NCBI GenBank assembly: GCA_021850325.1
Contig: JAJZMF010000020.1
Coordinates: forward strand, 62,001-126,000
Length of the DNA: 64,000 nucleotides
Direction: 5' to 3'
Origin: Actinomycetes bacterium
Lineage (GTDB): Bacteria; Actinomycetota; Acidimicrobiia; Acidimicrobiales; Palsa-688
In this document: positions 5,737 to 49,306 of the stretch, one piece after another
How positions within the stretch are numbered: position 1 is the stretch's first letter
How the letters are laid out: each line of letters begins with the position of its first letter
Translations under genes and position numbers: made by a program
Notes under the pieces: generated by a model
Databases searched by the model: none
Seen by the model: the letters and a program-made list of their open reading frames with translations, nothing else
Told to the model about the DNA's origin: nothing

Positions 5737-5785
5737 CGGGGCGGGGCCCCGGCCCGGCCACTGCGCGGCGGCCAGGGGCAGGGCC

Positions 5786-5823
5786 GTGGCCCGCCGATGG
5801 GGTTGGAGCCAACGGCGGGCCAC
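5786..5823. terminator. hairpin terminator between convergent genes
   Basis: Perfect 11-bp inverted repeat GTGGCCCGCCG / CGGCGGGCCAC around a 16-nt loop. It lies between the stop of the secreted protein gene (+) and the end of the Opp operon (-). There is no U-tract, which is common for high-GC terminators. Confidence 0.6.
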
Positions 5824-5878
5824 GGGTGGTGGCCACCGGCCCGGGCTACCGGCCCCGGGGGCAGCCGTACCTGGCGCT

Positions 5879-13781: not shown

Positions 13782-15590
13782 ATGCGCCGTCCCCTGGAGG
13801 CCCACCGGGCACACCGGGCTCTCGCCGGGGTGGTCGCCACCCTGGCATGGCTTGCCGGTCTCCTGAGCCCTGCCCTTGTGCAGCCCGCCGGGGCCGCTCC
13901 GTTGCCGGTAGGGGCCACGGGCGCCGCTGCGGGCCACGTGGTGGGGGCCGGTGGCCCTGTCGCCCCGGGGCCGTTGTCCTCTGCGTTGCACCGGGTGCCC
14001 CTGAGCGCGGGGCGGCCGCTGCCCGGGACCTGGCCCCGCCCACGCCCCCTGGTCGCTGCCCCGGCACAGGCACCCAAGCCGACCGTGCCCCTGGAGTCGA
14101 CGAACTGGTCCGGCTTCGTCGCCTCCCGCGCCGGGGCCCGCTTCACCGGCGTGACCGGGGCCTGGACGGTGCCCACAGTCCAGCCGGGCCCGGCCGGGTA
14201 CTCGAGCAGCTGGGTGGGCATCGACGGAGCGACGAACCAGACCCTCGTCCAGGCCGGTACGGAACAGGACTGGAGCCCGGACGGGGTCGTCTACTACGCC
14301 TGGTACGAGCTGATCCCGTCTGCGTCCATCTACCTGGGCCAGGTCTTCCCGGGTGACCGCATCGTTGTCGACATCGCCATGGCCGGCCCGTCCACCTGGA
14401 AGGTCACCGTCTACGACTCCACGTCGGGCACCGTGTGGTCGGGGGCGGTGTCCTACTCCACCCCGGGCAGCTCCGCCGAATGGGTGGAGGAAGCACCGAG
14501 CAGCGGGACCAGCCTGAAGCTCTTCCCCCTGGCCAACTTCGGCTCCGTCGCCTTCAGCGACCTTGCCGTGACCGGCCCGGGGACGGCGCAGGCCACGCTG
14601 GCCCCCATTTACATGGTCACCAAGGGCCATGGCCCGGTACGCGCCTACCCGAGCCCCTACGACCCCTCCACCAACTCGTTCGGCGTCACCTACGGGACCA
14701 GGCCGGCGGCCACGTACCCGGGCGTACGGCTGTCGGGCGGGCCCTCGGCACCGCCCGCCCCGGCGCCCCCGCCCCCCGCGGGCTACGGCCCGTCGCTGGT
14801 CGGGCCCGGCTACTGGCTTGCCGGCCTGGACGGAGGCGTCTACGCCTATGGTTCGGCCCGCTACCACGGCTCTGTGGCCGGGCTCGGCCTGGGCAGGGGC
14901 CAGAGCGCAGTCACAGGTATAAGCCCCACACCCGACGGTGGCGGCTACTGGCTGGTGACCCTGTCCGGCGGGGTCTTCCCGCTCGGGGACGCCCCCTACT
15001 ACGGTTCGCTGGTCTCCCTCGGGGGACAACCGGAGCCCATCGTGGGCCTGGCGTCCACTCCTGACGGGCGGGGCTACTACATGGTCGGCGTCTCGGGCGG
15101 GGTGTACGCCTTCGGCGACGCCCACTACGCAGGGGGCTGCAGCACAGCCGCCTGCGGGCAGACCTCCACGGTGGCCATCGTCGCCAACAGGACCGGGAAG
15201 GGCTACTGGCTCGTGCAGTCCGACTGCCGGGTGGTGGCGTTCGGTGGTGCGCCCGCTCTCAGCTCGGCAACCTGCCAGGCCGCGACAGGCGCCGAGCGCA
15301 GCCCCGCCCGCGCCGCCGCCGCTGCGCCGGGCGGCGACGGGCTGTGGGTCGTCCTCCAGAACGGCTCGCTGTACCCGCTCGGCTCCGCCACCGCCCTGGG
15401 GGCCTGGCCCGGCACCGCTCGTCCGGTGAGCACCGCACCGGCAGCGGCACTGGTGCCCACGGCCGACGGCCGGGGAGGTTGGCTGGTACTGGCCAACGGG
15501 AGCGTCGAGCCGCTCGGTGATGCGAAGTCCCTCGGGGACCTGGGGGGGCACCGGCTCAACGCCGCCGTGTTCGCCGCTTCGGGCGCCTGA
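13782..15590 (+). CDS. secreted G1-family glutamic peptidase fused to a C-terminal propeller
   Basis: A 602-residue exported protein. A signal peptide ends near residue 39 (VQPAGAA). Residues about 105-310 match the eqolisin (peptidase G1) family: NWSG at 108, WVGIDG at 144, the glutamine of LVQAG (Q157) and the glutamate of SAEWVEE (E233). The last two correspond to the Gln/Glu catalytic dyad of scytalidoglutamic peptidase. A proline-rich linker follows, then residues 335-602 hold about six degenerate propeller repeats of the type GYWLAGLDGGVYAYGSARYH. Glutamic peptidases work best at acid pH. The family assignment rests on these motifs; the fusion partner may bind substrate or the cell surface. 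It is monocistronic. Confidence 0.85.
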   Translation: MRRPLEAHRAHRALAGVVATLAWLAGLLSPALVQPAGAAPLPVGATGAAAGHVVGAGGPVAPGPLSSALHRVPLSAGRPLPGTWPRPRPLVAAPAQAPKPTVPLESTNWSGFVASRAGARFTGVTGAWTVPTVQPGPAGYSSSWVGIDGATNQTLVQAGTEQDWSPDGVVYYAWYELIPSASIYLGQVFPGDRIVVDIAMAGPSTWKVTVYDSTSGTVWSGAVSYSTPGSSAEWVEEAPSSGTSLKLFPLANFGSVAFSDLAVTGPGTAQATLAPIYMVTKGHGPVRAYPSPYDPSTNSFGVTYGTRPAATYPGVRLSGGPSAPPAPAPPPPAGYGPSLVGPGYWLAGLDGGVYAYGSARYHGSVAGLGLGRGQSAVTGISPTPDGGGYWLVTLSGGVFPLGDAPYYGSLVSLGGQPEPIVGLASTPDGRGYYMVGVSGGVYAFGDAHYAGGCSTAACGQTSTVAIVANRTGKGYWLVQSDCRVVAFGGAPALSSATCQAATGAERSPARAAAAAPGGDGLWVVLQNGSLYPLGSATALGAWPGTARPVSTAPAAALVPTADGRGGWLVLANGSVEPLGDAKSLGDLGGHRLNAAVFAASGA

Positions 15591-15649: not shown

Positions 15650-15940
15650 TTACAGCTGGATGACCTGCTCCTGTGGTGTGCCGATCGCGCTCAGGTTGCG
15701 CCTGGCCACCTGCCGGGTGCCCGGGCCGCCGCCCAGCTCCTCCACGAAGCCGTGGCGGTTGATCATGAGCAGCAGCTTGCCCCCACCTTCGGCGTTCAAG
15801 TCGAGCACCGTTTCGACCAACCAGCCGCCGCCCAGTTCCAGCACGGCGAGGTCGCTGGCCGCGATGTCGGGGTAGCGCGAGGCCAGGTACTCCCATGCGA
15901 CCTCCCCCGCCGTCGAGCTGGTGGAAACCCTGCTTGCCAT
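15650..15940 (-). CDS. small hypothetical protein
   Basis: A 96-residue protein with no recognised family. ATG 15940 has GGAGG and AAGG sequences 7-15 nt upstream and trims a long low-complexity extension. The sequence is acidic to neutral with no signal peptide or membrane segment, and may form a small alpha/beta domain (VAWEYLASRYPDIAASDLAV, then GGGWLVETVLDL and KLLLMINRHGFVEEL). It converges on the glutamic peptidase gene. The function is unknown. Confidence 0.65.
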   Translation of the reverse strand: MASRVSTSSTAGEVAWEYLASRYPDIAASDLAVLELGGGWLVETVLDLNAEGGGKLLLMINRHGFVEELGGGPGTRQVARRNLSAIGTPQEQVIQL

Positions 15941-22003: not shown

Positions 22004-22124
22004 CGCGGCACCGAGCCTACGCGTGCGGGCCCGCCCGGCGGGCTCGGCCGCCGCCGCCGCTCGAGGGCTTTGGGCCACAAGCACCGGGCCCCGCCTGACG
22101 CGCGCCCCTCGCCGGGCCCTGAGA

Positions 22125-22196
22125 GCGGACGACGGGATTCGAACCCGCGACCCTCACCTTGGCAAGGTGATGCTCTACCAACTGAGCCACGTCCGC
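22125..22196 (-). tRNA. tRNA-Gly (anticodon GCC)
   Basis: A 72-nt cloverleaf on the minus strand. The acceptor arm GCGGACG pairs with CGTCCGC, the D-arm is GCTC-AGTTGGTA-GAGC, the anticodon stem TCACC/GGTGA encloses TTGCCAA (anticodon GCC), and the T-arm contains GGTTCGAATCC. The 3' CCA is not encoded. Confidence 0.97.
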
Positions 22197-32327: not shown

Positions 32328-32365
32328 GACGGCACTGTGACTAGCGAGACCAAGGAGCGGTGAGC

Positions 32366-33805
32366 ATGGCACAACAGAGCGAGCACAGGTTCCCGAACTG
32401 GGGCGAAGCCGGTACACCCGGGACTGCAGGCCAGCCCTGGGCGGGTGCCGGGTGGGGTGCCGGCCAGGGCTGGCCGGGAACTGGCGCGACGGGCTGGGGC
32501 TCCCAGGGCCCCGCCGGCCCCCCGGACCAGGCCGCATGGGGCGGCCCGCCTCCGGGCGAACAGGGCCATTGGGCCGGCAAGGACGGCTCCGCACCCCCGA
32601 GACCGCCCCGGAGGCGGCTCGCCATCGCCGCCGCCCTCGTGGGCACGGCCCTGGTGGCCGGCGGTGCGGGCGCCGGTATCGCTCTGGCCGCCGACCAGCC
32701 GGGTGCCGGTAGTCCCAGCACCGTCCCAACCGCCGAGAACACCCCGGCAGCCTCGTCGCCCGCGCCGGGCGCGCCGGGCCAGGGGCTCAACGTGCCCGCC
32801 ATAGCTTCCCGGGTCGAACCGGCCACCGTGGACATAACCGCCACGGGCCCCAACGGCCAGGACGAGGGCACGGGGATGGTCATCACCCGGTCCGGCCTCG
32901 TGCTCACGAACAACCACGTCATAGTGGGCTCGACCAAGCTGTTCGCCCAGGTCAACGGGGCCGGTAAGAAGTACCCGGCAACGGTGGTGGGCACGAGCCC
33001 CACCGACGACGTCGCGCTGCTCCAGCTCCACGGGGGTTCAGCCTTCAGCACCGTGAGCATCGGCAACTCGAGCCAGGTCGCGGTGGGCGCCCAGGTCGTG
33101 GCGATCGGGAACGCCCTCGCCCTGCAGGGCCCTGAGACCGTGACGGACGGGATCATCGCCGCCACCAGCCGGACCATCAACGTCGGGGACCCGGCGACGG
33201 GCACCACGGAGACCCTGAAGGGCGTGTTCCAGACCACGGCCCCCATCAACCCGGGCAATTCCGGCGGCCCTCTCACCAACTCGGCAGGCCAGGTGATCGG
33301 CATGAACACGGCCGCAGCCACGGGGTCGGCCACGGGGACCAGCGCCTCCAACGTCGGCTTCGCCATCCCCATCGACCATGCGATGGCCATCGTCAACCAG
33401 ATCGAGGCGGGCAAGGCGAGCCCGACCGTGTTCATCGGGCCCCACGCCATCATGGGCGTGACGGTGGAGAGCGTGGCCTGTGCCGAGGGCCAGGTCTCCG
33501 GCTGCTACCCGCTGGGCTCGAACGGCCTGTTCGGCGGCCCCTTCGGCTTCAGCACCTACAGCGCGCCCACCCAGCACGGCGCGGTGGTGGCCGGCGTGGA
33601 GCCCGGAAGCCCGGCGGCAGGCGCGGGCCTGGCTGTGGGCGACGTGATAACCGCCGTGGACGGCCGCTCCGTGGCCAACCTTTCCGACCTGTCGCACCAG
33701 CTGACCGGCAAGAAGGTGGGCCAGGCCGTCACGGTCAAGTGGCTCAACCCCGGGGGCAGCGCCCACAGCGCCCGCCTCCAGCTCGAGGCGGGGCCGGCCC
33801 TGTAG
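32366..33805 (+). CDS. HtrA/DegP-like membrane-anchored serine protease
   Basis: An envelope quality-control protease of 479 residues. A cytosolic Gly/Trp/Pro-rich N-terminal region (about 75 residues) precedes one transmembrane helix (AIAAALVGTALVAGGAGAG), a linker, and a trypsin-like domain. The catalytic residues lie in NNHVI (His), TSPTDDVALL (Asp) and GNSGGP (Ser). A PDZ domain follows (GSPAAGAGLAVGDVITAVDG). An insertion with two cysteines (VACAEGQVSGCYPLG) separates them. ATG 32366 has AAGGAG 8 nt upstream; GTG 32360 is too close to it. Confidence 0.95.
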   Translation: MAQQSEHRFPNWGEAGTPGTAGQPWAGAGWGAGQGWPGTGATGWGSQGPAGPPDQAAWGGPPPGEQGHWAGKDGSAPPRPPRRRLAIAAALVGTALVAGGAGAGIALAADQPGAGSPSTVPTAENTPAASSPAPGAPGQGLNVPAIASRVEPATVDITATGPNGQDEGTGMVITRSGLVLTNNHVIVGSTKLFAQVNGAGKKYPATVVGTSPTDDVALLQLHGGSAFSTVSIGNSSQVAVGAQVVAIGNALALQGPETVTDGIIAATSRTINVGDPATGTTETLKGVFQTTAPINPGNSGGPLTNSAGQVIGMNTAAATGSATGTSASNVGFAIPIDHAMAIVNQIEAGKASPTVFIGPHAIMGVTVESVACAEGQVSGCYPLGSNGLFGGPFGFSTYSAPTQHGAVVAGVEPGSPAAGAGLAVGDVITAVDGRSVANLSDLSHQLTGKKVGQAVTVKWLNPGGSAHSARLQLEAGPAL

Positions 33806-33823
33806 GGCCTCCCCCACCAGCCT

Positions 33824-33870
33824 CCGCCCGCCGGCCGTCCGCTACCCTCCCGTGGACGGCCGGCGGGCGG
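33824..33870. terminator. 17-bp perfect hairpin with a promoter-like loop
   Basis: Arms 33824-33840 and 33854-33870 are perfectly complementary over 17 bp. The 13-nt loop contains TACCCT (33843-33848), a good -10 hexamer. It follows the HtrA stop by 18 nt and ends 13 nt before the flavin-reductase ATG, so it may terminate one gene and also hold the promoter of the next. Confidence 0.6.
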
Positions 33871-33883
33871 CCACACTCGTGGG

Positions 33884-34534
33884 ATGACCAACCCGCCGCC
33901 CGGCCCCGGCTCGTCCGGCAGCCACCTGCACTTCGCCCCCCCCTGGTCGGACGCACCGCAGGACCGTGACCCGCTGCGCAGGGCCAGGGGCCGTCTCCCG
34001 CTGCCTGTCACCGTCTGGCTGGCCCAGCCCGCGGGCAGCCCCGGGACCGAGCAGTTCGGGGCGGCCGGAGCCCCACGTCACGAGGCGAGGACAGGCAGCA
34101 GCGGTGCTTCGCAGCCCGGCCTGTTCCAGGGGGACCGTGGGACCGTGGGCCTCACGGTGTCCTCGCTTCTCGTAGCCCCCGGTGAGCCCGGCCTCCTGGC
34201 CGGCGTGGTCAGCCCCACCACCGACCTCGGAGACCTCCTGGCCGGCGAGGGTGGCACCAGCTTCACCGTGCACCTCCTCCGGCCCGGGCACCGCCGGCTT
34301 GCCCAGCACTTCGCCGGCCAGCTGCCCGCTCCCCCCGAACAGCTCGCGGTAGCCGTCACCCCTGCCGGCCCGGCGCTGGAGGTGGTGGACGACAGGATCT
34401 TCTGCCGGGCGACCGGCGTCAGCTCCTTCGGCTGGTCCCTGCTCGTCCAGGCCGAGGTGCTGGAGGTCGAGCTCGGCCGGCCCGGGCCTGCCCTCATCTG
34501 GTCCGCCGGCGCTTACCACAGCCTGGGAGGCTGA
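33884..34534 (+). CDS. flavin reductase-like (split-barrel) protein
   Basis: A 216-residue protein. From about residue 80 it follows the flavin reductase-like FMN-binding pattern: GTVGLTVSSLLVAPGEPGLLA, DLGDLLAGEGGTSFTVHLL (the usual LLresgrFtVnvL) and HRRLAQHFAG. The N-terminal 75 residues are Pro/Gly-rich and variable. It could supply reduced flavin or reduce a small molecule, though no partner oxygenase is adjacent. ATG 33884 is the only plausible start after the hairpin. The assignment is moderate because the cofactor-binding loops are not diagnostic. Confidence 0.7.
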   Translation: MTNPPPGPGSSGSHLHFAPPWSDAPQDRDPLRRARGRLPLPVTVWLAQPAGSPGTEQFGAAGAPRHEARTGSSGASQPGLFQGDRGTVGLTVSSLLVAPGEPGLLAGVVSPTTDLGDLLAGEGGTSFTVHLLRPGHRRLAQHFAGQLPAPPEQLAVAVTPAGPALEVVDDRIFCRATGVSSFGWSLLVQAEVLEVELGRPGPALIWSAGAYHSLGG

Positions 34535-41642: not shown

Positions 41643-41666
41643 GGCACCGCCGGGCCTGACGCGCCG

Positions 41667-41694
41667 AAGGCCCACGGCAGCAGCCGTGGGCCTT
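41667..41694. terminator. bidirectional hairpin terminator
   Basis: AAGGCCCACGGC-AGCA-GCCGTGGGCCTT: perfect 12-bp stem, 4-nt loop, between the convergent membrane-protein and repeat-protein genes. A/T pairs at the base give short A and T runs on both strands. Confidence 0.75.
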
Positions 41695-41726
41695 CCGGGT
41701 TCCGGGCTCCCCGAAGGGGGCGCCGA

Positions 41727-49272: not shown

Positions 49273-49306
49273 GCAAAGGGCGTGGGCCACGGCCCACGCC
49301 CTTTGC
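49273..49306. terminator. bidirectional hairpin terminator
   Basis: GCAAAGGGCGTGGGCC-AC-GGCCCACGCCCTTTGC, a perfect 16-bp inverted repeat, between the convergent receptor and FGGY kinase genes. Confidence 0.8.

Follow-up and report, generated by a model that had tools for sequence, protein, structure and literature searches.

A palindrome between htrA and a flavin-reductase gene as a putative U-less terminator abutting a candidate leaderless promoter

The exact inverted repeat downstream of an htrA-like gene was analyzed within a stretch of 64,000 nucleotides (the window) and within the genome assembly to which it belongs, which comprises 3.18 Mb (3,177,012 bases) in 49 contigs and is 95% complete. 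We infer, with somewhat more than even confidence, that the repeat forms a U-less terminator of htrA that abuts a leaderless promoter of the following flavin-reductase gene. The palindrome is a strong and real, but ordinary element. The inverted repeat would act at the RNA level, at the 3' end of the htrA message, where a very stable, GC-rich and U-less hairpin may end transcription or help to end it together with NusG or Rho. The same hairpin may also protect the 3' end of the transcript. The flavin reductase would be transcribed from its own leaderless promoter, for which CACACT at 33872-33877 is the most likely -10 element; as this hexamer occupies the leaderless position, the predicted start of the RNA is the A of ATG 33884 or an adjoining base. 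In this compact arrangement the terminator would lead directly into the promoter, whose -35/spacer region would contain the hairpin's 3' arm. The features concerned are the following.

32360..33805, + strand: htrA/degP-like serine protease gene with a PDZ domain (longest open reading frame; matches to PF13365 Trypsin_2 and PDZ)
33824..33840, + strand: 5' arm of the hairpin (sequence, fold)
33841..33853, + strand: loop of 13 nt, GCTACCCTCCCGT (sequence, fold)
33843..33848, + strand: TACCCT, hexamer in the loop, 35 nt before the ATG (sequence, spacing counts)
33854..33870, + strand: 3' arm of the hairpin, directly followed by CCACACTCGT, without a T tract (sequence, U-tract scan)
33872..33877, + strand: CACACT, candidate leaderless -10, just outside the hairpin and 6 nt before ATG 33884 (spacing statistics)
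33884..34534, + strand: flavin-reductase-like gene, PF01613 (open reading frame, family match, conserved N-terminus, no Shine-Dalgarno sequence)

The initial annotation had described exact 17-bp arms around a 13-nt loop holding TACCCT, placed after htrA and 13 nt ahead of the next ATG. The geometry is confirmed by the arm coordinates and by 100% complementarity over 17 nt, and the placement by the coordinates of the open reading frames: 18 nt separate the htrA stop codon (33803-33805) from the hairpin, and 13 nt (33871-33883) lie between the hairpin and ATG 33884. As RNA, the stem gains one G-U and one C-G pair to reach 19 pairs, which leaves UACCCUCCC (9 nt) unpaired. The 79 nt from 33806 to 33884 fold with -56.2 kcal/mol (z -7.0), and none of 200 shuffled sequences folded equally well. 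A 17-bp palindrome is far beyond chance, yet not unique in kind. Base composition predicts 0.001 arms of at least 17 bp per 64 kb, and ten random sequences with the dinucleotide frequencies of the window contained no perfect arm longer than 12 bp, whereas the actual window harbors one of 17 bp, one of 15 bp and four of 13 bp (loops of 3-20 nt in each case). The perfect 15-bp hairpin (49273-49306, 4-nt loop) is positioned between convergent genes, belongs to the U-less class and has a gene-end z of -6.7. Perfect 13-bp hairpins of the same U-less gene-end class occur between convergent genes at 5784-5825 and 41666-41695.

Within the assembly the whole palindrome is single-copy, both by BLAST and in a pattern search with its 31-base core at up to three mismatches, and the idea of a mobile or repeated (REP-like) palindrome thus found no support. 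The genome contains one further palindrome built on the inner eight arm bases, GGCCGTCC/GGACGGCC, within a 16-bp gene-end hairpin (L121 17956-17992). A looser pattern of 15 bases from arm and loop was found at 104 places, compared to 60 for the reversed control. Among the 51 non-coding hairpins surveyed below, 34 of 1275 pairs share at least 8 nt of their arms, a number that shuffled arms can also reach (mean 20, maximum 38 in 200 trials). The class is nevertheless not wholly repeat-free, since L111 contains a true repeat, two copies of a palindrome that agree in their 12-bp arms and 6-nt loop and lie 1.7 kb apart (13957-13990 and 15695-15724); an exact pattern search revealed no third copy elsewhere in the genome. 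No known RNA family was recognized. At gathering score the whole window gave no Rfam match except a tRNA (22124-22196), and the two microRNA-family matches at 33700-34000 were below threshold (E 0.17 and 0.2). Scans of 33500-34200 detected neither a canonical (L-shaped) terminator with a U tract nor an E. coli-type sigma-70 promoter.

Relatives were drawn from 32 genomes of the same family, including two congeners (G001 and G002) and a member of another genus (G010). Five relatives of the flavin reductase belong to named records, which are metagenome-assembled genomes labelled Acidimicrobiales, Acidimicrobiaceae (two) and Actinomycetes (two). ATG 33884 is supported as the start codon because the N-terminus, MT followed by P within three residues, is common to the proteins of G001, G002 and G010. 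This start lacks a Shine-Dalgarno sequence, with none of GGAG, GAGG or AGGA at -20 to -4. The true start of htrA may be located further in; a simple gene caller chose 32639. Rho (Rho_RNA_bind match) and NusG are both present in the genome, and a family search of the genome for Rho_N gave no match.

The assignment of the hairpin as htrA terminator, which the initial annotation had also considered, is supported by the genome-wide placement of comparable hairpins and by the folding of gene ends, and termination itself is predicted on these grounds. Perfect hairpins with arms of at least 11 bp and loops of 3-20 nt were surveyed in 737,760 of the 3,177,012 bases, comprising the window and 34 stretches of the same genome, with gene contexts taken from a simple codon-usage gene caller and not from curated annotation. 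The 79 hairpins obtained were distributed over coding sequence (28), co-directional gaps (27), convergent gaps (18), divergent gaps (4) and the ends of stretches (2). This corresponds to 17.9 hairpins per 10 kb between convergent genes, 5.46 between co-directional genes, 1.33 between divergent genes and 0.44 in coding sequence, a distribution that U-less ('I-shaped') hairpin terminators would be expected to show. Nineteen of the 27 co-directional hairpins start at most 60 nt from a stop codon. A T tract accompanies only one of the 51 non-coding hairpins (one side looked at), and the 10 nt after these hairpins contain 1.6 T on average. Across 591 gene ends, a perfect stem of at least 6 bp with a T tract within 120 nt was counted once (L070 after 10887), and not at all in coding controls. 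By eye, a stem with TTTTTT was also noticed at L119 17324-17390, approximately 700 nt past the nearest called stop codon.

In the folding test, the 70 nt after stop codons were compared with exact dinucleotide shuffles. The htrA gene end reached z -6.9, the lowest value of 588 gene ends in the sample. Among the 320 gene ends followed by gaps of at least 50 nt, 53 had values below -2 (22 of 108 convergent and 31 of 212 co-directional ones), and the same was true of 22 of 529 coding controls (Fisher 1.3e-9). In short gaps the corresponding counts were 8/182 (co-directional) and 9/86 (convergent), and the control upstream of divergent genes was not low (9/83). Folding alone thus separates gene ends from gene starts poorly, as these short convergent gaps and divergent upstream regions pass the same threshold, and the densities of perfect hairpins separate the two better. 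Median z was -0.6 for convergent and -0.3 for co-directional ends, and most gene ends carry no strong hairpin.

U-less, I-shaped hairpin terminators have been described in mycobacteria (PMC12288462; TtsaD, PMC5335608), with papers by Unniraman and Ahmad cited as the primary work. The htrA-end hairpin resembles them in its stable GC-rich stem, its location at most 50 nt from the stop codon and the absence of a U tract; the likeness concerns these three features, and termination is a prediction here. From a canonical (L-shaped) intrinsic terminator it differs in having a stem without a U tract. Termination in mycobacteria is described as depending mainly on Rho, with intrinsic terminators being rare, and RNA polymerase is reported to need a U tract in vitro, on which reports conflict (PMC12288462, PMC5335608). 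In Streptomyces avermitilis, 3' ends lacking U appear weaker than U-rich ones (PMC8780764). The palindrome is one of the strong gene-end hairpins of a GC-rich genome that is nearly free of stem-plus-T-tract terminators, and genomes of this type would allow the debated question of U-less termination to be addressed.

For the downstream promoter, the regions upstream of 423 genes with gaps of at least 45 nt were surveyed, 255 of which lack a Shine-Dalgarno sequence. TAnnnT is located 6-7 nt before the start codon in 46 of the 423 genes, against a background of approximately 1.2 per position. The genome therefore starts many genes leaderless with this spacing, a pattern in line with the leaderless TANNNT promoters of Actinobacteria (PMC3160421, PMC8780764). 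Like them, the flavin-reductase gene lacks a Shine-Dalgarno sequence and has a hexamer resembling a -10 element at a distance of 6 nt from its start codon. It differs in that CACACT carries a C in place of the consensus T at its first position, and in that the promoter abuts a hairpin. CAnnnT at a spacing of 6-7 nt was observed in 13 of the 255 genes without Shine-Dalgarno sequence compared to 3.6-4.4 expected (Poisson 1e-4 to 6e-4), in a test chosen post hoc after CACACT had been noticed at the flavin-reductase start. Among co-directional gaps of 45-150 nt, perfect hairpins with arms of at least 9 bp were present in 3 of 30 leaderless ones and in 6 of 98 others; because they are not clearly commoner in the former, a hairpin beside a leaderless -10 may reflect mere compactness. 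The closest look-alike layout is found at L115 12535-12591, where 18 nt separate a stop codon from a 12-bp hairpin, which is followed by TAAGGT and the GTG of an open reading frame called RuvC-like from its peptide by eye and not by family search. A similar arrangement of a 10-bp hairpin, TAGCAT and ATG occurs in L111.

The initial annotation had proposed that TACCCT in the loop serves as the -10 of the next gene, which would give a leader of approximately 29 nt starting in the 3' arm while the hairpin terminates htrA. TACCCT fits TAnnnT, and TAnnnT is present in the loops of 2 of the 27 co-directional hairpins compared to 0.32 expected by composition. However, one of the two is the palindrome itself and the other is TATTTT at 103 nt from a start codon, and none of five co-directional loops in 520 kb from five related genomes, a very small number, contained the motif. 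The loop promoter does not hold up as a recurring trait. In favor of the loop hexamer, 18 TAnnnT motifs were counted at spacings of 40-44 nt over all 423 genes; motifs at 42, 43 and 44 nt number 6, 3 and 2 in genes with a Shine-Dalgarno sequence, whereas the flavin-reductase gene, and hence the proposed leader, has none. In genes without Shine-Dalgarno sequence, TAnnnT at spacings of 30-40 nt is at background (7 observed, 6.4-8.3 expected), although three of these seven, the flavin-reductase gene included, are located exactly at 35 nt. These counts and the presence of CACACT at the leaderless position speak against TACCCT, and the use of the loop hexamer as the flavin-reductase -10 is considered improbable. 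The loop sequence is probably incidental. A truly bifunctional element, in which the palindrome terminates htrA as RNA and its loop carries a working flavin-reductase -10 as duplex DNA, is slightly less probable still; if it existed, initiation at the loop could not coincide with transcription entering from htrA. Titles and abstract openings yielded no paper on a -10 element in an actinobacterial terminator loop, from which absence is not implied.

The other readings separate according to whether the palindrome acts as RNA or as DNA. As RNA, it could stabilize or process a 3' end within one htrA-flavin reductase transcript, causing differential decay while termination takes place elsewhere. 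The gene arrangement in relatives points in this direction. The congener G001 harbors an htrA orthologue (68% identity) with the flavin reductase next to it in a 4-nt GTGA overlap (L038 1459), which suggests coupled translation of the two, and G010 has retained the pair with an 87-nt spacer. Rho is also present, and 3' structures have been described as protective against decay in E. coli (PMC8780764). On the other hand, such hairpins are densest between convergent genes, where no operon runs on, and the flavin-reductase gene has a leaderless-type -10 and no Shine-Dalgarno sequence. A stabilizing or processing role without termination at the hairpin is judged unlikely. As DNA, the arms could form an operator at which a regulator controls the flavin-reductase promoter. 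The palindrome does overlap the region upstream of CACACT, and its inner GGCCGTCC/GGACGGCC recurs once, in another gene-end hairpin, but the 31-base core is unique, arm sharing does not exceed that of shuffled arms and G001 has no intergenic site; this reading is very unlikely. Extrusion of a cruciform that exposes a single-stranded promoter, also raised by the initial annotation, is the most remote of the readings. The arms are perfect and a single DNA strand of the palindrome folds with -28.8 kcal/mol, but the center is GC-rich, which makes extrusion unlikely, and promoter loops do not recur. Bacterial sigma-factor promoters are generally recognized as duplex. The single-stranded hairpin promoters of phage N4 vRNAP and plasmid Frpo resemble the proposed arrangement in placing a promoter in a hairpin; these are dedicated to a special polymerase or to single-stranded DNA that is transferred.

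A U-less htrA terminator next to a leaderless promoter accounts best for these observations, with several points standing against it. The first base of CACACT is not the consensus T, most gene ends are without a strong hairpin while 9 of 83 divergent upstream controls fall below z -2, and hairpins are not clearly enriched beside leaderless promoters. The mycobacterial reports of Rho dominance and of a U-tract requirement in vitro also argue against it. In addition, gene ends of G001 display no significant excess of structure (7/73 below z -2, compared to 6/103 controls). Folding also did not support a lineage-specific surplus of such hairpins in the genome of the window relative to G001 (53/320 vs 7/73, Fisher 0.15). 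In other relatives, the share of convergent ends below z -2 ranged, in tiny samples, from 0% (G017, 8 ends; G022, 10 ends) to 43% (G019, 14 ends).

No intergenic hairpin is present in the htrA-flavin reductase pair of G001, and the largest perfect stem in the spacer of G010 has 7 bp. In G002, the contig with the flavin reductase has a different upstream sequence, and the htrA matches listed are on other contigs. In relatives the two genes may form one coupled unit; overlapping in G001, they would be split in the species of the window by a compact joint of terminator and promoter. Within the opening codons of the flavin-reductase gene, both congeners carry inverted repeats, of 12 bp at L039 1283-1310 and of 8 bp at L038 1497-1524, in a seemingly homologous place.
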